The position numbers were made by a program, and so were the translations under genes. A DNA stretch of 23,852 nt from a virus, in IMG/VR virus record IMGVR_UViG_3300043313_000589, positions 1-23,852 of that record. One strand, 5' to 3'. How positions within the stretch are numbered: the first letter of the stretch is position 1; every line of letters starts with the position of its first letter. Under the pieces are notes generated by a model, which saw only the letters and a program-made list of their open reading frames with translations, made no database searches and was not told where the DNA came from. Below are positions 3,303 to 23,467 of the stretch, piece after piece.

Positions 3303-3546
3303 AGCCGTTGTCGCCCTCGTCATCGATCGCGCGGTGTGGACGTTCGGATCTGCGGTGGAGACCGACATGGATGAAGCCGAACGGTCGATGACCAAGGTTA
3401 ACAAGAAAGCAACGCCAGAACGGATCGCGGCAACCCGGCAGGCGGTCCTCGACAAATACTTGAACATCGGGAAGGAAGCAAGGGAAGAGGCGCCAAAGGG
3501 GCGTTTCCGCGACCCGGCTCTTTCGGTCAAACGACGAAGGAGTTAA
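3172..3546 (+). CDS. tail assembly chaperone T part, probably made as a +1 frameshift GT fusion
   Basis: This frame is open from 3118 (after TGA at 3115-3117) and ends at 3546, three bases before the tape measure ATG. Its first ATG is 3172, but that start has only a G-run before it. The protein has the T-type pattern LWELWRMAKDFRCRPSEL, then VVALVIDRAVWTFGSAVETDMDEAE, then a charged C-terminus. It is in the +1 (or -2) frame relative to the G gene. The best slip site is UCC-UUU-C at 3180-3186, where tRNA-Phe could move from UUU to UUC. A G5 run at 3161-3165 is the alternative. The fusion would read about 187 residues of G, then 119 of T. Confidence 0.7.
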   Translation: MSNPFVKHPTRLWELWRMAKDFRCRPSELTGHTLKGDDLHGGGRAVVALVIDRAVWTFGSAVETDMDEAERSMTKVNKKATPERIAATRQAVLDKYLNIGKEAREEAPKGRFRDPALSVKRRRS

Positions 3547-16302: not shown

Positions 16303-16347
16303 TTGACATCGGTCCACACCCCCGCGTACCGTCCGTGTTGTCAGGGC
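16303..16347 (+). promoter_or_regulatory. promoter with GTCAGGGC start element (copy A)
   Basis: TTGACA at 16303-16308, 18 bases, TACCGT at 16327-16332, 7 bases, then GTCAGGGC at 16340-16347. The element begins where transcription should start, 32 bases before ATG 16372. A second TTGACA at 16291 has no matching -10. Confidence 0.78.
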
Positions 16348-16371
16348 AACGACAACCCGAAGGAGCACCCG

Positions 16372-17160
16372 ATGCGTCAGACGTTCCCCCTTCACGGCGA
16401 CACCCCCCACAACGGGACGACCACGATCTACACCCAGCACGAACTCACGGCCGGTGAAATCGCCCGGGACCGTGGGCGCACAGCCGCAATCGATCGCAAT
16501 CGGGTCAAGCGCAGGAAGCACGACGTGAACGCCGTGACCATCGTGCACGTCAACGACGCGGCCAGCGACCCCCAAAAGGAATTGATCGTTTCTCTGCTCA
16601 AAGACTTGTCCGTGTTGGACGAAACCACCTGGATGGCCGCTGCCACATGGTGGCTCGGTGGCGGAGGCGCAACCGGCGCGGTTGATACCGCTAACAAAGC
16701 GTTGGCCTCGCAAACCATCGCCCGACTGAAGATCCGGATCACTGAAGCCAAAGCAAAGCCCGGGGTCACCCGTCCATTGCCGACGTATGCGTCTGCGGTT
16801 GGGGCAACGCTGGCGTCGATGACAACCACTCCGGCATACACCCCCCGGGACAAATTCGCTGACGTGCCCAACGGGTACTACGCGGTGACCACCAACGATG
16901 ACGTGCTGGCGTTCTACCGGGTGTCCACCTGGGAGAAATCCAATAACCGAAAGGTTCAGGTCCAGGCGTCGGACGCACTTCACCTGGTCCGTGGCCGGGT
17001 AGCAACCGACGCCATCCTCTCAAAAATCCGCATCGCTACCGCTCCGATCGCGGGTAAACTGTACGCCGATCACCTCGGCAATTGCTGGATGTGTGGACGT
17101 ACGTTGACCGACGCCGACTCACGCGCCCGGGGCATCGGCCCGGTATGCGCCAGTAAATGA
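16372..17160 (+). CDS. DUF6011-like C-terminal zinc-motif protein
   Basis: The start ATG 16372 has AAGGAG upstream and lies just after promoter copy A; the longer frame from 16213 would run back through the promoter. The 262-residue protein has a basic N-terminal part (RDRGRTAAIDRNRVKRRKHD), then a helical region (QKELIVSLLKDLSVLDETTW) at about 68-87. The C-terminus carries C238-x2-C241 and C259 in NCWMCGRTLTDADSRARGIG, the pattern of the DUF6011 zinc-binding family common in actinobacteria and their phages. A linker and a beta segment YYAVTTNDDVLAFYRV lie between. The molecular role of the family is unknown; nucleic-acid binding is a guess. Confidence 0.75.
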   Translation: MRQTFPLHGDTPHNGTTTIYTQHELTAGEIARDRGRTAAIDRNRVKRRKHDVNAVTIVHVNDAASDPQKELIVSLLKDLSVLDETTWMAAATWWLGGGGATGAVDTANKALASQTIARLKIRITEAKAKPGVTRPLPTYASAVGATLASMTTTPAYTPRDKFADVPNGYYAVTTNDDVLAFYRVSTWEKSNNRKVQVQASDALHLVRGRVATDAILSKIRIATAPIAGKLYADHLGNCWMCGRTLTDADSRARGIGPVCASK

Positions 17161-17167
17161 TTTACTC

Positions 17168-17193
17168 GGGGGGTGCCTACGGGCACCTCCCCC
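17168..17193 (+). terminator. strong hairpin after the DUF6011-like gene, no T-tract
   Basis: GGGGGGTGCC pairs with GGCACCTCCCCC around the loop TACG, an extra-stable UNCG-type tetraloop, with two bulged bases. It begins 8 bases after the stop. AATCAGGGC follows instead of a T-tract, so it may end, protect or process the RNA rather than terminate fully. Confidence 0.5.
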
Positions 17194-17194
17194 A

Positions 17195-17202
17195 ATCAGG
17201 GC
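17195..17202 (+). promoter_or_regulatory. leader element ATCAGGGC (variant copy) before the 17231 gene
   Basis: The sequence ATCAGGGCAACC, one base off the GTCAGGGCAAC found at promoter starts, lies 36 bases before ATG 17231 and directly after the hairpin. No TAnnnT is found 6-7 bases upstream, so either this gene is read from promoter A or the element acts in the RNA. Confidence 0.45.
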
Positions 17203-17230
17203 AACCATCTCATCTGAAAGGTCACATCTC

Positions 17231-17650
17231 ATGGGCACGATTGATACCAAAACCGTAGCGGCCGCATTGGGTACCGAACCTAAAGTTCTTCGTCGCTTCC
17301 TCCGTGATCCGAAATCGACCTACGCGGCGGTTGGCTCGGGGTCGCGTTACAACTTCACCGAAAACGATCTCCCCGAACTGACTCGTCGCTTCCAGGAATG
17401 GTCGGGTAATAAGGCATCACGTCCGGCCGTTATCCGGGTTCCGCAGGATGAGGACACCAAACGTGAGAAGGACATGGCCGTTTGGGAGGAGGAGGGTCCG
17501 GTGTTCATGGCGGACCTCCGTGATCCTCGGGTTCGTCGCCGGGTGAAGGAAATTGCCCAGGCACAAATGGATCGTCTCGACGAACGGCTGATGGCCGTGG
17601 GTCTGCACATCTCTCAACTGCGGTACCGTGATCAGGAGTTGGCCGCATGA
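17231..17650 (+). CDS. winged-helix-like DNA-binding protein
   Basis: This 139-residue protein has a GAAAGG site upstream. Its first 60 residues form a compact helical module (IDTKTVAAALGTEPKVLRRFLRD, then VGSGSRYNFTENDLPELTRRF) with the VG-x-G-x-RY signature shared with the 19023 protein. The rest is a long charged helical region (EKDMAVWEEEGPVF, then RRVKEIAQAQMDRLDERLMAVG), likely for oligomerisation. It is a probable phage regulator or DNA-organising protein. The stop overlaps the small membrane gene by four bases, so the two are co-translated. Confidence 0.74.
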   Translation: MGTIDTKTVAAALGTEPKVLRRFLRDPKSTYAAVGSGSRYNFTENDLPELTRRFQEWSGNKASRPAVIRVPQDEDTKREKDMAVWEEEGPVFMADLRDPRVRRRVKEIAQAQMDRLDERLMAVGLHISQLRYRDQELAA

Positions 17651-17787
17651 TCGAGCTAATCTTTGATCTCGTCTATGGACTGAAGGGCGATTTCTGTCTC
17701 GTGGTATTCCTGATCGGTGCGCTTCTCCTGGGTATCGGGTTGGCCGGATCGAGCCCCCCTGTTGACGCCGACCAGGACAACGCGTAG
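17647..17787 (+). CDS. 46-residue membrane peptide
   Basis: This small gene begins with ATGA overlap to the preceding stop. It encodes a short amphipathic start (MIELIFDLVYGLKGDF), one membrane segment (CLVVFLIGALLLGIGLAG, about residues 17-34) and a polar, acidic tail SSPPVDADQDNA. Coding is supported by tight coupling and by its clean membrane-peptide layout. The TAG stop forms the first three bases of the -10 box of the next promoter. Function is unknown; small phage membrane peptides often act on host envelope or superinfection, which is only a guess here. Confidence 0.6.
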   Translation: MIELIFDLVYGLKGDFCLVVFLIGALLLGIGLAGSSPPVDADQDNA

Positions 17788-17805
17788 CGTCAACGACGTC
17801 AGGGC
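17762..17805 (+). promoter_or_regulatory. promoter with GTCAGGGC start element (copy C)
   Basis: TTGACG at 17762-17767, 17 bases, TAGCGT at 17785-17790, 7 bases, then GTCAGGGC at 17798-17805, 32 bases before ATG 17830. The promoter is buried in the end of the small membrane gene; its -10 uses that gene's stop codon. Confidence 0.75.
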
Positions 17806-17829
17806 AAACGACGAACCCCGGAGGGGACA

Positions 17830-18882
17830 ATGACCACAGACCACATGGCCAAGATCATGGGGTTGATCCAAAAACTGATCAATCTTGCCGAGCACCCTAA
17901 TACTGGTCCCGACGAAGCAGCCGCGTTCCGCGAGCGGGTCGAGCGTTTGATGCGGGAGTACCGCATCGAGGAAGAGCAATTGATCGCCACTGACCCGACG
18001 TCAATCGTGCCGGTGATGCACACTATCCTGGTCTCTTCATACGAAAGCGAATTCGCCGGGGAATATGAGGCCATACTGGCGTACATCGTCAACCACACGG
18101 GCGTGCTGGTTCAATACCGGCGTCCTCCGACTGGATCGCCTCCGGGATCGTACGTCGACATGTTCGGCTACGACGGTGACCTCCGCATGACCGAATGGCT
18201 GTGGTCATCGGCGCGCCTCGTATTCGGATCACACCTTGAGCCGTCCGTGGACCCCGCGCTGGGTGACCAGGTCAACGCGTACAACCTCCGCCAGTCGGGG
18301 ATGCTCCGAAAGGACATCGCACGCAAACTTTGGGGAGCCAACACCCCCGCCAACCGGTCGCGCGCCCAGCGGTTGTACGTGGCGGAGTGCAAGGTGCGGG
18401 GCGAACAACCGGCCCTCAGCGGGCTTGGGATGGACGCCACGATGTACCGTGACGCGTATGCAGCCGGGTTCCTCGATCGCCTGTACGGCCGTCTCAGGGC
18501 CGCGCGCAACGCCGCTGACGTAGCCGGTGGCGCGTTGGTGTTCCCCGGTCGAGAGGAGCGGGTCAAGGAATTTCTGTACGCCGCATACCCCCACCGTCGC
18601 CCGAAGCCCAAGCCGGAAGGTGTGGTCGCCCCGGTCATTGTGCCGGACACCACTCCAGCGAAGGTGGACAAGCGCCGGAAGGATTGGACCCAGGCCGATC
18701 AGCGCGCGTGGGATCGGCGTAACGGCGCATCGGCACAACGAGGTCACGCTGCCGGACATGATGCCGCTGGCAAGGTGGACGTTGCCCCCACGCACGAGCG
18801 CGCACAGCGGGTTGATGCGCCGGAACCTCGCGGTACTCGGGTACCCAATTCGCGAATCATCCGATTGGAAGTTCAGAACTAA
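17830..18882 (+). CDS. DUF2786-like protein
   Basis: This 350-residue protein has an excellent GGAGGGG site. The N-terminus, AKIMGLIQKLINLAEHPNTG, then DEAAAFRERVERLMREYRI, matches the DUF2786 pattern (K-I-x-x-L-x-x-L-A ... E-A-x-x-F ... L-M). The middle (about residues 65-235) is a mixed domain with AYIVNHTGVLVQYRR, VDMFGYDGDLRMTEWL and YRDAYAAGFLDRLYGRL, similar in layout to actinobacterial relatives. The C-terminal 90 residues are polar and probably disordered (PKPKPEGVV, KRRKDWTQADQRAWDRR). Function of the family is unknown. It has its own promoter (copy C) and terminator. Confidence 0.78.
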   Translation: MTTDHMAKIMGLIQKLINLAEHPNTGPDEAAAFRERVERLMREYRIEEEQLIATDPTSIVPVMHTILVSSYESEFAGEYEAILAYIVNHTGVLVQYRRPPTGSPPGSYVDMFGYDGDLRMTEWLWSSARLVFGSHLEPSVDPALGDQVNAYNLRQSGMLRKDIARKLWGANTPANRSRAQRLYVAECKVRGEQPALSGLGMDATMYRDAYAAGFLDRLYGRLRAARNAADVAGGALVFPGREERVKEFLYAAYPHRRPKPKPEGVVAPVIVPDTTPAKVDKRRKDWTQADQRAWDRRNGASAQRGHAAGHDAAGKVDVAPTHERAQRVDAPEPRGTRVPNSRIIRLEVQN

Positions 18883-18905
18883 AACTGCGCTGACCTGGGA
18901 GATGT

Positions 18906-18948
18906 GGGCCGGATCGAGGTTTTCTAAAAAATCTTGGTCCGGCCCTTT
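18906..18948 (+). terminator. terminator running into the next promoter
   Basis: A perfect 8-base-pair stem GGGCCGGA/TCCGGCCC (18906-18913 and 18938-18945) is followed by TTT, which is the start of the next -35 box TTGACA at 18947. The 24-base loop contains a TTTTCTAAAAAA run that could form extra pairing. Confidence 0.72.
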
Positions 18949-18990
18949 GACATGTCCAGGCGAATGCTCTAACGTTAGTGGTGTCAGGGC
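18947..18990 (+). promoter_or_regulatory. promoter with GTCAGGGC start element (copy D)
   Basis: TTGACA at 18947-18952, 17 bases, TAACGT at 18970-18975, 7 bases, then GTCAGGGC at 18983-18990, 40 bases before ATG 19023. It is the best consensus copy; the -35 shares bases with the T-tract of the terminator before it. Confidence 0.82.
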
Positions 18991-19022
18991 AACGAAACGA
19001 AAAACCACCCAAGGAGATCGCA

Positions 19023-19511
19023 ATGAACATCATCACCGCCACCACCCCCGCCGCTTCCGCTGAATACAAGGGAATGGCCGCGACGCTCACCCTCACCGAT
19101 GGCACCACGCTCGCCGGGACGTTCCTCTCGGTCAACTCGAAGGGTTGGAACATCGTGGTTGAGGGGGTCACCGTCTCCCGTGGATTCTCCCGGGTTACCG
19201 CCGTGAACGTGGACGCCGATTCGGTTCCGGACATGGACGAGGACACCGAGGCGGACTACATGGCCGACATGACCGACGCTGGCGAAATCGACTTCTCGGA
19301 CGACGACAACGCCGAAATGAACGCCCTCGTTGCTGAACTCGATGGGGCCACCACGGCGGAGGTCGCGGATGTGTTCGGGACGTCGGCCAAGGAATTGCGC
19401 GTGACGCTCCGGGCATTGGGCATGGGCGTTGGCAAGGGTCACCGCTACCACCTGACCGCCGATCAAATCGCCACCGTGCGGACCGCACTCGAAGGCGCAC
19501 CGATCGCGTAA
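19023..19511 (+). CDS. two-domain protein with C-terminal winged-helix-like module
   Basis: The start ATG 19023 follows AAGGAG; an in-frame GTG at 18978 lies at the transcription start and is rejected. The 162-residue protein begins with a small beta domain (ATLTLTDGTTLAGTFLSV, then NIVVEGVTVSRGFSRVTAVNV), Sm-like or SH3-like in pattern. A very acidic linker follows (MDEDTEADYMADMTDAGEID, DDDNAEMN). The last 55 residues, TTAEVADVFGTSAKELRVTL and VGKGHRYHLTADQIATV, resemble the module at the start of the 17231 protein. A nucleic-acid-binding regulator is inferred. It is monocistronic under promoter copy D. Confidence 0.75.
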   Translation: MNIITATTPAASAEYKGMAATLTLTDGTTLAGTFLSVNSKGWNIVVEGVTVSRGFSRVTAVNVDADSVPDMDEDTEADYMADMTDAGEIDFSDDDNAEMNALVAELDGATTAEVADVFGTSAKELRVTLRALGMGVGKGHRYHLTADQIATVRTALEGAPIA

Positions 19512-19522
19512 CAACTGCAAAA

Positions 19523-19556
19523 GCCCGGGTGGACCGCTCAACGATGTCCCCCGGGC
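19523..19556. terminator. hairpin after the 19023 gene, better terminator on the minus strand
   Basis: An 11-base-pair stem (GCCCGGG-T-GGAC with GTCCCCCGGGC, one bulged T) starts 12 bases after the stop. On the + strand no T-tract follows. On the minus strand the stem is followed by TTTT, a normal rho-independent layout. It could stop minus-strand readthrough as well as mark the end of the + transcript. Confidence 0.5.
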
Positions 19557-19561
19557 CTGAT

Positions 19562-19648
19562 GGGCCTGATTCAGGTGAAACGGCCGCTTCCCGGTGAAAC
19601 CCCGGGTGATATGCGGAATCGGCTGGGGTTCGAATCCCCACGGGCTCA
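19562..19648 (+). ncRNA. tRNA-like RNA with canonical T-arm, non-canonical body
   Basis: Positions 19624-19640 form an exact T-arm: TGGGG, loop TTCGAAT, CCCCA. A 7-base-pair acceptor-like stem joins GGGCCTG (19562-19568) with CGGGCTC (19641-19647), two pairs being G-U, with A as discriminator. The 87-base span matches a class II (Leu/Ser-size) tRNA. However, no D-stem is found, and the hairpin in the anticodon place (CCCGG, loop TGAAACC, CCGGG) lacks U33. A longer stem GGCCG/CGGCT can enclose it, recalling the stemless D-loop layout of the tRNA-like domain of tmRNA. CCA is not encoded. It could also be a decayed tRNA or an attP copy of a host tRNA 3' end. Confidence 0.4.
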
Positions 19649-19697
19649 CGTACCGGGCGGGTCGTTGTCATTTGGACGCGGCCCGTTCGTGTAGAGA

Positions 19698-19726
19698 TTG
19701 ACCGTTCGGATGAGGCGAAATACTGG
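19698..19726 (+). promoter_or_regulatory. possible promoter for an intergenic RNA
   Basis: TTGACC at 19698-19703, 17 bases, TACTGG at 19721-19726. The -10 ends in G instead of T, so strength is doubtful. No GTCAGGGC follows and no reading frame begins downstream before the next terminator. Confidence 0.35.
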
Positions 19727-19732
19727 ACGGTA

Positions 19733-19902
19733 CACCCCGAAGCGCGCGGGTCACCACAACACCCGCCCACTGTCTTGGTCCTCTCACAAAACATGTGACC
19801 ACCCGGCAACCCCCGCCGCTCGCGCGGCGTGCCGGAAGGCACGGGCCACCGAGAAATAACCGAACGGATGAGGTCCCCGGTCGCAGGTTGGCCGGGGATT
19901 TC
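19733..19902 (+). ncRNA. candidate structured noncoding RNA
   Basis: About 170 bases without a plausible gene contain successive hairpins: GCGGGT/ACCCGC (19746-19766), GCCGC-TCGC-GCGGC (19815-19828) and CGTGCC-GGAA-GGCACG with a GNRA loop (19828-19843). The terminator at 19874 ends the unit. A promoter-like sequence precedes it at 19698. An imperfect repeat, ACCG-TT-CGGATGAGG at 19701-19715 and ACCG-AA-CGGATGAGG at 19859-19873, brackets the unit. No known RNA family is recognised. Confidence 0.35.
19874..19902 (+). terminator. terminator before promoter copy E
   Basis: TCCCCGG at 19874-19880 pairs perfectly with CCGGGGA at 19892-19898, then TTTCT. It ends whatever transcript covers the 19512-19900 gap and lies immediately before the next -10 region. 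Confidence 0.68.
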
Positions 19903-19925
19903 TGTTAGAGTTTGGGGGTCAGGGC
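19903..19925 (+). promoter_or_regulatory. extended -10 promoter with GTCAGGGC start element (copy E)
   Basis: TGT-TAGAGT (19903-19911) is an extended -10; six bases later GTCAGGGC lies at 19918-19925, 34 bases before ATG 19952. No good -35 is present at the usual distance, where the terminator stem lies. Confidence 0.6.
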
Positions 19926-19951
19926 ATGACAAACACGAAAGGACCACGACA

Positions 19952-20263
19952 ATGGCTCGCATGGATCACACGAACTGCACACACCCCCGGACCCCCGCTG
20001 GCCGCGCCACCTGTCGCAAGAACGCCACGGTGACCCCGTCGCTCGCTCCGGACCGCTCGCTGTTCGCCATCCCGACGTCGAAGTTGACGGCCGATGAAAT
20101 CACCGCCGCAAACGAGGCGATGTCGGAACTGATCGGCACCGACCCGATTGACCACCGGGTGGACGACGCGGACAACCAGGCATTGGTTCAGCAGGTCATC
20201 GGTCGCATGACCCGCGCGCAACTCGCTTCGCCCACGATCCAATCAATGCTCCCCAAGAAGTAA
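19952..20263 (+). CDS. hypothetical protein with N-terminal His/Cys cluster
   Basis: The start ATG 19952 has AAAGGA upstream and follows promoter copy E; the longer frame from 19829 crosses the terminator and promoter. The 103-residue protein has H6, C9, H11 and C21 (HTNCTHPRTPAGRATC), a possible metal site. A helical remainder follows (LTADEITAANEAMSELIG, then DADNQALVQQVIGRMTRAQL) and it ends MLPKK. It is monocistronic with its own terminator at 20278. The family is not recognised. Confidence 0.7.
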   Translation: MARMDHTNCTHPRTPAGRATCRKNATVTPSLAPDRSLFAIPTSKLTADEITAANEAMSELIGTDPIDHRVDDADNQALVQQVIGRMTRAQLASPTIQSMLPKK

Positions 20264-20277
20264 ATCGCCTGAACGAT

Positions 20278-20311
20278 ACCCCCGGCCTTGGTTGATTTGG
20301 GTCGGGGGTTT
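20278..20311 (+). terminator. terminator containing the next -35 box in its loop
   Basis: ACCCCCG at 20278-20284 pairs with CGGGGGT at 20303-20309, followed by TTT. The 18-base loop holds TTGATT, the -35 of the promoter for the 20357 gene, so terminator and promoter occupy the same DNA. Confidence 0.72.
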
Positions 20312-20339
20312 CGCGTAGGATATTGATATTGGTCAGGGC
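20292..20339 (+). promoter_or_regulatory. promoter with GTCAGGGC start element (copy F)
   Basis: TTGATT at 20292-20297, 18 bases, TAGGAT at 20316-20321, 10 bases, then GTCAGGGC at 20332-20339, 25 bases before ATG 20357. The gap to the element is three bases longer than in copies A, C and D. Confidence 0.68.
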
Positions 20340-20356: not shown

Positions 20357-20773
20357 ATGGCCACCAAAACTCGCGGTAGCATGATCCCCACACTTTTCGT
20401 GGTTGGGGTCGTGGCAGCGGCCGCGATGGTATTCGGTCGGTGGGACAACGACACCCCCGTACGCAACGACACGGAGGAGTTCGTAGAGGTAACGGTCCGG
20501 TTCACACCTTCGCCCAGCCACGACGGGATTCACATCAAATTTGATGTAGAGAACGTCACGGTGGTGGAGCACGTGGCCGACCGCTCGCCGTGGGTCCATG
20601 GGCAATGGGTCCCCAAGGGTGCCCAGGTGTCCGTCATGGCGCAGCAAGTCACCACGGGCATGGTGATGTGCACGTTGACGTCAAACGGGCTCGTGGTGGA
20701 CACCAGCGTTCGGAAGGACGAGTTGGGTTCGGCGCGGTGCTGGCACAACCGGAGGATCACGGTTCCGCAGTAA
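20357..20773 (+). CDS. membrane-anchored extracellular protein, MmpS-like pattern
   Basis: This 138-residue protein has a basic start, one membrane segment at about residues 10-26 (IPTLFVVGVVAAAAMVF) and a beta-rich domain predicted outside the membrane (FVEVTVRFTPSP, GIHIKFDVENVTVV, VPKGAQVSVMAQQV). C105 and C128 could form a disulphide. Topology and the late C-x-L-x-x-x-G motif resemble small MmpS-type proteins of mycobacteria, without enough evidence to assign them. A surface role such as superinfection exclusion is conceivable. It has its own promoter (copy F) and ends at the bidirectional terminator. Confidence 0.7.
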   Translation: MATKTRGSMIPTLFVVGVVAAAAMVFGRWDNDTPVRNDTEEFVEVTVRFTPSPSHDGIHIKFDVENVTVVEHVADRSPWVHGQWVPKGAQVSVMAQQVTTGMVMCTLTSNGLVVDTSVRKDELGSARCWHNRRITVPQ

Positions 20774-21383: not shown

Positions 21384-21707
21384 TCAATCAACGGCCTCAG
21401 ATGGCCCCAGATCGATTTTCCGGTCAATGGCGTCCATCACCCGGCGTGCGTCGCGTACGGACCGTACGACGTAACTGACTCCCCCCGCACCCCTGATTTG
21501 TTTGATCCGCAACCGTTGGATTGGTTCCGGGCCCTTGCCTTCGGGCATTTTGGTTTCTAATGCCAGCATGAAGCCCCGGTAACATCCAATTACATCGGGC
21601 AGGCCAGCCATCATCAGGGCGTTGCCATGCACTTTGAAGGCGAACCCCCCACGTGCCCGAATGGCATCAATGATCGACCGTGACAGTTTAGATTCGCCCT
21701 GTGACAT
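21384..21707 (-). CDS. VRR-NUC nuclease
   Basis: This 107-residue protein has AAGGA upstream of ATG 21707. It carries the PD-(D/E)xK layout of stand-alone VRR-NUC nucleases: a helix SKLSRSIIDAIRARGG at about 6-21, KVHGNALMMAGLPDVIG with the PD aspartate at about residue 38, LALETK with catalytic E and K at about 49-53, then AGGVSYVVRSVRDARRVM. Such phage proteins are thought to cut branched DNA (Holliday-junction-like) during replication or packaging. It is in the recombination gene group but set off by a 159-base gap with its own promoter-like region. Confidence 0.85.
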   Translation of the reverse strand: MSQGESKLSRSIIDAIRARGGFAFKVHGNALMMAGLPDVIGCYRGFMLALETKMPEGKGPEPIQRLRIKQIRGAGGVSYVVRSVRDARRVMDAIDRKIDLGPSEAVD

Positions 21708-21731
21708 TGCGTGTGTCCTTGTCTATGAGGA

Positions 21732-21772
21732 ACCCCGAACCGGTCGGAATATTCACGTGCCCGGTTCGGGGT
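21732..21772 (-). other. 12-base-pair hairpin in the leader of the nuclease gene
   Basis: ACCCCGAACCGG at 21732-21743 and CCGGTTCGGGGT at 21761-21772 are perfect complements around a 17-base loop. In the minus direction TTCC follows, so termination would be weak. It lies between the promoter-like region at 21783-21821 and ATG 21707 and may be an attenuator or the end of the upstream transcript. Confidence 0.55.
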
Positions 21773-21782
21773 CCTTCGGGGG

Positions 21783-21821
21783 GTCAGGGCAGACCACCAC
21801 ATTAGGAATGATCGTCATTCC
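21783..21821 (-). promoter_or_regulatory. minus-strand promoter candidate with operator-like dyad
   Basis: Reading leftward: the perfect dyad GGAATGA-TCG-TCATTCC (21805-21821, given here on the + strand), then TAATGT (21804-21799), 7 bases, then TGCCCTGAC (21791-21783), the reverse complement of the start element. The dyad fills the 17 bases just upstream of the -10. No consensus -35 is seen, which would fit a regulated promoter. Confidence 0.42.
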
Positions 21822-21866: not shown

Positions 21867-22643
21867 TCACAGTTCGTAGAGGTCCAGTTCATCGTCATCG
21901 TCGTCATCGACGGGCTTCTTCTTGCTCTTGCCCTTGGCCGACTTGTCCTTGCCCTTCTTGGCCTTGACCGGTGGCTCGTCGTCGTCCTCGTCATCCTCGT
22001 CATCATCCTCGACGGGCTTAGCCTTGGCCTTCGACTTGCCCTTGGCTTTTGCCGGGGGTTCGTCATCATCGTCATCATCGTCTTCGTCGTCGTCCTCAAC
22101 GACAGCCTTGGCTTTTGTCTTGCCCTTGTTGCGGACCGGCTTCGCAGGCTCCTCGTCTTCGTCGTCCTCGATGTCGTCGTCTTCTTCGGCCGCGCGGGAC
22201 TTGGCCTTGGTGGAGGTGGCCTTGCCGCTCCGCTCGTTCAGCGGGTCGTCCATGTCGTCAGCCGGGAAGATGGCGTCGATGGTGGACTTGGGGCGGCCCT
22301 CGTACTCGTCGTCCACGAGCGCGATACCGATGACCTTACCAACCACCTTGTTGGGGTCCGCCTTCAACCGCTTCGGCGGAACCTTGATGCCAGCCGCGAC
22401 GAACAAGCCGCGCGCCTTCCACAGCGAGTCGGCATCCAGCCCGACGTAGTACGGGTACGCGGCGCGTGCGTCGCCGTGAACCTTGACGGTGAAGCACCAC
22501 ATCTCGTCACCGGTCTTGCCGGACTTGTGGTCCTTGACGGCCGTGATGGTTGCGTAGTAATCGCCCTCCGGCTTCCGGCGAGGACGGAACTCAGAACCCT
22601 CGGATACGCCCTCGAAATTCAGGACTTTGGCGGTAGCACCCAT
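21867..22643 (-). CDS. single-strand DNA-binding-like protein with acidic/lysine repeat tail
   Basis: This 258-residue protein starts one base inside the stop of the Sak4-like gene. Residues about 1-135 look like an OB-fold domain of the phage SSB/DUF669 type: FRPRRKPEGDYYATITAVKD, WCFTVKVHGDARAAYPYYVG, VGKVIGIALVDDEYEGRPKS. From about residue 150 the chain alternates acidic blocks (EDDDEDDDDDDDEPP, VEDDDEDDEDDDEPP) with lysine-rich blocks (AKAKGKSKAKAKP, KGKDKSAKGKSKKKP) and ends DDDDDDELDLYEL. Acidic ends of SSBs recruit partner proteins; the lysine blocks may add DNA binding. Pairing with a Sak4-like ATPase supports a recombination or replication role. Confidence 0.78.
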   Translation of the reverse strand: MGATAKVLNFEGVSEGSEFRPRRKPEGDYYATITAVKDHKSGKTGDEMWCFTVKVHGDARAAYPYYVGLDADSLWKARGLFVAAGIKVPPKRLKADPNKVVGKVIGIALVDDEYEGRPKSTIDAIFPADDMDDPLNERSGKATSTKAKSRAAEEDDDIEDDEDEEPAKPVRNKGKTKAKAVVEDDDEDDDDDDDEPPAKAKGKSKAKAKPVEDDDEDDEDDDEPPVKAKKGKDKSAKGKSKKKPVDDDDDDELDLYEL

Positions 22644-23467
22644 TACTTGATCACTCCTTCTTTCATTGCCCTGACCACGTTGGCCACGGTTGGGTTGGGT
22701 ATGAAGTCCGGTAGCACATGCTCGCTCCGGTACCCGGTCTCGTACATGTCGTCTGGTCCGATCAGTAGTCGTCGTTGACGCGTCGACTCCTCGACGACTA
22801 CCTCCCCATTCCTCTTGAACTTGCGGATGAACGGCTCCTCCGGAGATGCCCTCACCACGTAGATACGTCCGGTCAGGTCAACGATGGCGTTGATGGCTGA
22901 TCGCGCGCCCTTGGGAAGATCTACGATGTACTGGTACGTAACCGGCGTGGCCTCGTCGTCATCCTCCATCGAATCCATGGAGTCGACCCCCACCATCTTC
23001 TCCTGGGCGGTGAACACGATACCCATGTGCCGGAGTGAATGGAAGTTGTCAAGCATGTCCTGGAACTTTTGGTTGGCACGGCCGTAGTGTTGCTTGCCCA
23101 CCTGGATGGGCTGGTTCGAGATGTTGGCTTCCTCGGCCTGGTGCATGACCCACTTCAACGCGCGCTGGTATATCTTGGTCAGTCCGTCCATCGAGATCCA
23201 CTCGTATGGGTGGTCACCCGATCGGAGGAACAAGAACGCGTCGTTCATGTCGTCCCACTTGCGGATGTGCCATAGATCACGCAACGCCTTGGGCTGGTCA
23301 TCCGGATCGAGCACCAGCACTTTGGGCGCAGTGTTCCCAAACCGAGTCTTGCCCTTTTTATTCCTGCCGTAGATCAGCAGCCGGGGGGCGCGTTCGTCGC
23401 CGGGTTGACGGATGGTCTTCCGAGCAATCTCTGAGTAGTTCTTCTTGGCCGTGGACGTTTTGGCCAT
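22643..23467 (-). CDS. Sak4-like RecA-fold recombination ATPase
   Basis: This 274-residue protein contains a Walker A motif GRNKKGKT at residues 34-41 after strand RLLIY. A Walker B-like strand is at about 92-96 (WISMD), and a helix-rich middle holds KQHYGRANQKFQDMLDNFHSL. The segment MGIVFTAQEKM and the later GARSAINAIVDLTGRIYVV match the AAA_24/Sak4 group, phage single-strand annealing or RecA-like ATPases. Its coupling to an SSB-like gene is the usual arrangement for Sak4. The gene start overlaps the stop of the gene to its right by one base. A copy of GTCAGGGC lies in its 3' end, 32 bases before the next start. Confidence 0.83.
   Translation of the reverse strand: MAKTSTAKKNYSEIARKTIRQPGDERAPRLLIYGRNKKGKTRFGNTAPKVLVLDPDDQPKALRDLWHIRKWDDMNDAFLFLRSGDHPYEWISMDGLTKIYQRALKWVMHQAEEANISNQPIQVGKQHYGRANQKFQDMLDNFHSLRHMGIVFTAQEKMVGVDSMDSMEDDDEATPVTYQYIVDLPKGARSAINAIVDLTGRIYVVRASPEEPFIRKFKRNGEVVVEESTRQRRLLIGPDDMYETGYRSEHVLPDFIPNPTVANVVRAMKEGVIK

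Follow-up and report, generated by a model that had tools for sequence, protein, structure and literature searches.

Cluster K mycobacteriophages carry start-linked repeats, the SAS and ESAS, which were described in 2011, have no assigned function and are thought to concern translation initiation (PMC3203893). The SAS, GGGATAGGAGCCC, contains the SD core and lies 3 to 7 bp before the start codon (PMC3203893). The stoperators of cluster A are 13-bp sites with an invariant G at position 1 and TCAAG at positions 9 to 13, which are bound by the immunity repressor of these temperate, integrase- or parABS-bearing phages and halt elongation (PMC9283540, PMC5559632). The repeats of the cluster O mycobacteriophages are 17-bp palindromic dyads, about a third of which lie in coding regions (PMC4351075).

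The element described here, with the consensus (G/A)TCAGGGC or RTCAGGGC, stands ahead of about nine genes in three phages, namely that of a 23.9-kb viral fragment (the window, which is the whole 23,852-nucleotide stretch that was analyzed) and those of its nearest distinct relatives, the viral contigs G004 (57,155 bases) and G006 (58,072 bases). In common with the cluster K SAS (PMC3203893), it is short, asymmetric, present in a single orientation and linked to gene starts, it belongs to the non-structural part of an actinobacteriophage genome, and it is conserved across different gene families; the likeness in idea to start-associated sequences that the first-pass annotation had proposed is borne out. 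It differs from the SAS, however, in its distance of 25 to 44 nt from the start codon, in preceding the SD and in coinciding with the probable +1. Within two mismatches, the SAS consensus GGGATAGGAGCCC occurs nowhere in the window, nowhere in G004 and once in G006, and we favor the view that the element is analogous to the SAS yet not a member of it. It would then be a case independent of cluster K and with a sharper anatomy, in that an invariant core coincides with the probable mRNA 5' end. Cluster A stoperators are also short asymmetric sites that occur at promoters and in short intergenic gaps and run along transcription, whereas the element has TCAGGGC at 22 of 22 leader sites, and neither a tyrosine (PF00589) nor a serine (PF07508) integrase was matched in G004 or G006. 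The cluster O repeats (PMC4351075) resemble the element in being clade-specific and in occurring in phages without an integrase, but they are palindromic and are not tied to start codons. A literature search with the literal word gave no phage work among the matches listed, and the sequence of the element itself is likely to be novel.

The window contains eight exact copies of GTCAGGGC, six on the plus strand (16340, 17798, 18983, 19918, 20332 and 21783) and two on the minus strand (22675-22668 and 1129-1122), compared with a mean of 1.17 and a maximum of 4 in 100 dinucleotide shuffles, none of which reached eight. Five copies sit 6 to 10 nt after a TAnnnT -10 box, and the composite TAnnnT-N5..10-RTCAGGGC occurs five times, against 0.063 in simulation (maximum 1). 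The excess of this rare word that the first-pass annotation had claimed therefore holds, although its expectation of less than one copy was slightly optimistic; its count of seven copies between 16340 and 22675 is correct, with the qualification that one of these, on the minus strand, falls within coding sequence, and the coordinates, -35 and -10 boxes and spacers of its five promoters with TAnnnT followed by the element could be confirmed from the sequence. A near copy at 17195, ATCAGGGC, which the first-pass annotation had overlooked, directly follows a hairpin ahead of the gene at 17231. In the structural region, the copy at 1129 is antisense; it is shared only by further contigs of this phage (L003 to L005, pieces that cover the left part of the window), no counterpart in that context was seen in G004 or G006, and it looks like a chance occurrence. 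The sites in the window, numbered S1 to S7 and S9, are as follows.

16303-16332, plus strand: S1 promoter, TTGACA-18-TACCGT, of the DUF6011 gene (16372-17160); orthologous promoters in G004 and G006
16340-16347, plus strand: S1 element, GTCAGGGC, 7 nt past the -10 and 32 nt before the ATG at 16372
17168-17193, plus strand: S2 hairpin, GC-rich, GGGGGGTGCC TACG GGCACCTCCCCC with one bulge, directly before the S2 element, from sequence
17195-17202, plus strand: S2 element, ATCAGGGC, without a -10 and 36 nt before the ATG of the HTH gene (17231-17650)
17762-17790, plus strand: S3 promoter, TTGACG-17-TAGCGT, of the DUF2786 gene (17830-18882)
17798-17805, plus strand: S3 element, GTCAGGGC, 7 nt past the -10 and 32 nt before the ATG at 17830
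18947-18975, plus strand: S4 promoter, TTGACA-17-TAACGT, of the p162 gene (19023-19511); promoter also in distant relatives
18983-18990, plus strand: S4 element, GTCAGGGC, 7 nt past the -10
19023-19511, plus strand: p162, with a predicted Sm/Hfq-like N-terminal domain, an acidic linker and an HTH-like C-terminus
19874-19911, plus strand: S5 terminator-like hairpin (19874-19898) fused to the -10 TAGAGT (19906-19911), from sequence
19918-19925, plus strand: S5 element, GTCAGGGC, 6 nt past the -10 and 34 nt before the ATG at 19952
20292-20321, plus strand: S6 promoter, TTGATT-18-TAGGAT, overlapping a terminator-like hairpin, of the p138 gene (20357-20773)
20332-20339, plus strand: S6 element, GTCAGGGC, 10 nt past TAGGAT and 25 nt before the ATG at 20357
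21730-21790, plus strand: S7, a large hairpin (21730-21773) and then GTCAGGGC (21783-21790), kept in both relatives
22668-22675, minus strand: S9 element, GTCAGGGC, in the last codons at the 3' end of the Sak4-like gene (22643-23467)

The S2 hairpin has counterparts in the same place in the relatives, and the fusion of hairpin and -10 at S5, where the promoter has no TTGAC -35, is also found in G006 and in L147. The S7 copy is flanked by two leftward genes (21867-22643 and 21384-21707), and in the gap that separates them an SD-like stretch is present and no conserved rightward ORF was found in the three genomes; it is the exception to the association with gene starts, having no gene. The S9 copy lies within a coding region and inside an operon, 32 nt upstream of the ATG at 22643 of the next gene.

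Named phages gave no match to the window at the DNA level by megablast, while at the protein level its nearest matches include Gordonia phage Cozz and Mycobacterium phage JacoRen57 and, for the tape measure protein, also Microbacterium phages such as Erudite. The tape measure protein is 64% identical to that of G004 and 61% identical to that of G006, and the continuation of gene order across the contig ends suggests that these two contigs are complete, circularly permuted genomes. The three element-bearing phages are uncultured and probably infect actinobacteria. Further carriers were sought with five proteins (tape measure, DUF2786, HTH, Sak4-like and p138) and with the conserved S4 21-mer, and only G004 and G006 had the element; in the regions examined it is not in excess in Cozz and JacoRen57, the nearest cultured relatives by protein, and positions 1-37299 of Erudite contain GTCAGGGC once. 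Genome-wide among 30 records, the composite occurs five times in G004, eight times in G006 and one to three times in four others, one of which, G033, has three copies of TAAAGTAGTTCYCATCAGGGC. A scan of viral and bacterial collections with TTGAC-TANNGT-GTCAGGGCA gave, beyond G004 and G006, two isolated viral and four bacterial matches, which by estimate is about the level of chance, and the matches of a looser scan were mostly chance. The element is restricted to this clade, its carriers being the window phage, G004 and G006.

Conservation was followed through seven sets of orthologous leaders in the window, G004 and G006, which are those of the DUF6011 gene (S1), the HTH gene (S2), the DUF2786 gene (S3), p162 (S4), p103 and its paralogs (S5) and p138 (S6), together with the gap between leftward genes (S7). 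The presence of the element upstream of orthologous genes in relatives, which the first-pass annotation had proposed as a check, was looked for and found in both genomes. TCAGGGC is invariant in all 22 leader sites, the first base is always a purine (G in 19, A in 3), and the base after the element is A in 18 of the 22. Adding S8 and S9 gives 27 sites in nine sets. At S8, which lies in a second region, G004 has TAGAAT-7-CAGGGC (35464, plus strand) and G006 has TACAAT-7-CAGGGC (38984, plus strand), in each case ahead of an A-rich leader, an SD and the ATG of a membrane-protein-like gene, and this shifted core narrows the core to CAGGGC and shows that more than one region carries the element. 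Pairwise identity between orthologs in S1 to S7 and S9 (S8 being excluded) is 98% for the element, compared with 58% for the -10 register, 42% for positions -40 to -14 and 28 to 55% for the flanks. The element has thus stayed identical while nearly all of its surroundings diverged, and from this comparison it is probably a real control signal.

In the case of S9, all eight bases are kept in G004 and G006 as GTG GTC AGG GC, in which AGG is a rare arginine codon (10 of 182 arginine codons in the nine window genes counted). Two relatives, L150 and L151, have CGA as the arginine codon of the same VVRA, and this codon comparison disfavors an explanation of the S9 conservation by protein constraint on VVRA only; conservation at the nucleotide level is no more than suggested, since the relative L155 also has AGG at this position.

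Apart from the gap at S7, what unifies the sites is that a start codon follows 25 to 44 nt downstream, with a separate SD between it and the element. In nearly all of the promoter sites the element begins 6 to 7 nt past the -10, the sole wide spacing being the 10 nt at S6 in the window (7 nt if counted from an alternative GATATT), for which the G006 ortholog has a spacing of 6 nt. In distant relatives some of the orthologous genes are leaderless, with TAGGTT-6-ATG and TAGATT-6-ATG (L147 and L160), and because the element shares its -10 register with these leaderless ATGs, its first base is the probable mRNA 5' end (+1) at promoter sites, in agreement with the earlier placement of the element at the expected start of transcription. 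The leaders are 51% A, compared with 20 to 22% genome-wide.

The element is nevertheless not part of the promoter, because promoterless copies are conserved and orthologous promoters in distant relatives are free of it. No -10 box precedes S2 in the window or in G004 (that of G006 is TAGATT, at 5 nt), S7 in the window or in G006, or S9 within its operon, and the promoterless copies at S2 and S7 follow hairpins. A sigma-A element or an initial transcribed sequence would always directly follow a -10, which is not the case at S2, S7 and S9. Conversely, distant relatives keep the -35 and -10 of p162 and most of them keep the GC-rich hairpin before the HTH gene, in both cases without the element. 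The near relatives with the element and the distant ones with promoters only thereby offer a natural before-and-after comparison of the acquisition of a signal.

Our favored reading, held tentatively and nearly as apt to be right as wrong, is that RTCAGGGC, with its core CAGGGC, is a leader signal that is tied to gene starts, is specific to this clade and acts as RNA in a lytic-looking actinobacteriophage lineage. The signal would act in the untranslated leader, where it precedes the SD and is 25 to 44 nt away from the start codon; in most genes it would form the mRNA 5' end, the +1 of the promoter being its first base, and in the others it would lie between cistrons, in a leader that follows a hairpin, or within the 3' end of the gene upstream. 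A putative phage-encoded RNA-binding factor, or the ribosome, would read this tag and so jointly set the translation or the stability of the tagged mRNAs within their A-rich leaders. Both the action as RNA and the reading by a putative factor are what we infer, and the proposed leader signal accounts for the position relative to SD and start codon, the hairpin-adjacent and operon-internal copies and the A-rich leaders. It leaves S7 unexplained, with its SD-like stretch and lack of a conserved ORF, and the fixed +1 register, which we count against it, would also suit a DNA-binding protein. Indeed, an operator or stoperator, at which a phage protein binds asymmetric DNA and blocks initiation at +1 and elongation at S2, S7 and S9, would account for S7 without a downstream gene and for the fixed +1 overlap, and asymmetric sites co-oriented with transcription at promoters and in intergenic gaps are what cluster A phages have (PMC9283540, PMC5559632). 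We consider it a serious rival but the less likely of the two, in that the cluster A consensus is not matched (invariant TCAAG there, TCAGGGC here), stoperator-like 13-mers within two mismatches lie off the elements in these genomes, the absence of integrase matches in G004 and G006 leaves no sign of a lysogeny that needs silencing, and an operator does not require a constant spot ahead of SD and start codon. The leader signal is ranked above the operator, the data not deciding between the two; the coexistence of promoter-bearing and promoterless copies makes the choice between RNA and DNA directly testable.

One proposal of the first-pass annotation was an initial transcribed sequence, for which the placement of the element exactly after the -10 at promoter sites speaks; its bases +1 to +8 would tune promoter escape or be read by a modified RNA polymerase. 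This proposal does not survive well and is very unlikely, given the equal conservation without a -10 (at S9, and in two of the three genomes at both S2 and S7), the orthologous promoters of distant relatives that have no element, and S6 of G004, from which the element is absent while the TAAGGT box is still present. Least probable of all is a functionless relic of promoter-leader cassettes copied between genes, whose common word would be due to recent ancestry or recombination: in the S5 family of G006 three promoter-leader units do resemble one another and their genes are partly related, but identity is down to 28 to 58% in flanks, -10 boxes and spacers against the 98% of the element, and one copy is retained inside coding sequence.

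No conserved RNA structure was seen in the leaders, and Rfam covariance models gave no match at gathering thresholds in 81 kb. The structures predicted around the element differ from site to site, and a hairpin within it, by GTCA/TGAC or GTTG/CAAC pairing, could form at some sites and is impossible at others. GCCCTG, the complement of the core, is absent from the 16S rRNA of E. coli, and two 7-base complements in E. coli 23S rRNA were judged to be chance. The lack of a conserved structure, of an Rfam match and of a 16S complement counts against the RNA-level reading, as does the small number of carriers, three genomes.

The p162 protein is a speculative candidate regulator on the basis of its predicted model, which has a mean pLDDT of 74.5 overall and of about 86 to 90 over residues 21-60, and which aligns with Hfq (6gwk) at Z 9.0 over 59 residues and 1.6 Å; an Hfq-like fold by itself shows no function for p162. 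A post-transcriptional regulon in which a 5'-terminal RUCAGGGC is read by a phage RNA-binding factor, possibly p162, is unlikely in that specific form, and the link between p162 and the element is only a guess, since relatives that lack the element have p162 orthologs too. The promoter-leader of p162 is the most conserved of all the leaders, with CGTTAGTGGTGTCAGGGCAAC at S4 identical in all three genomes.

Orthologs of genes tagged by the GTCAGGGC element appear to be leaderless in two distant relatives, L147 (13589-15739) and L160 (14961, 17257), where TAGGTT or TAGATT is followed 6 nt on by the ATG, and this appearance suggests that leaders have been gained or lost between lineages. Distant relative L140 (7962-13975) has its own leader word, GACAAGGGGA, ahead of eight genes, often with GATCGA coming next, and its copies are found behind promoters (TAGGCTAGTATG) as well as behind hairpins. 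Five genes in another relative, L142 (4840-12306), are preceded by repeated CTACCCGGGAGGGT or close variants, and TAAAGTAGTTCYCATCAGGGC occurs three times, in both orientations, in distant relative G033 (25097-25513).

Fused terminator-promoter units are directly preceded by the motif ACCGAA(C/A)GG(A/T)TGAGG, which recurs in a distant relative devoid of the GTCAGGGC element:

window, 19859-19873
L133, a further viral record, near 3543, 2868 and 2390
G006, a near relative, near 38984
L147, six copies

A short motif resembling HxxCTHxxTPxxRxxCR is common to proteins encoded by element-tagged genes:

p103 N-terminus (window gene 19952-20263)
C-terminus of the membrane-protein-like products encoded behind the shifted core CAGGGC (S8) in the nearest relatives (G004 35504-36133; G006 39017-39658)

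The family of p162 (window gene 19023-19511, plus strand), with a predicted Sm/Hfq-like domain, acidic linker and HTH-like domain, is kept in ten related phage loci.
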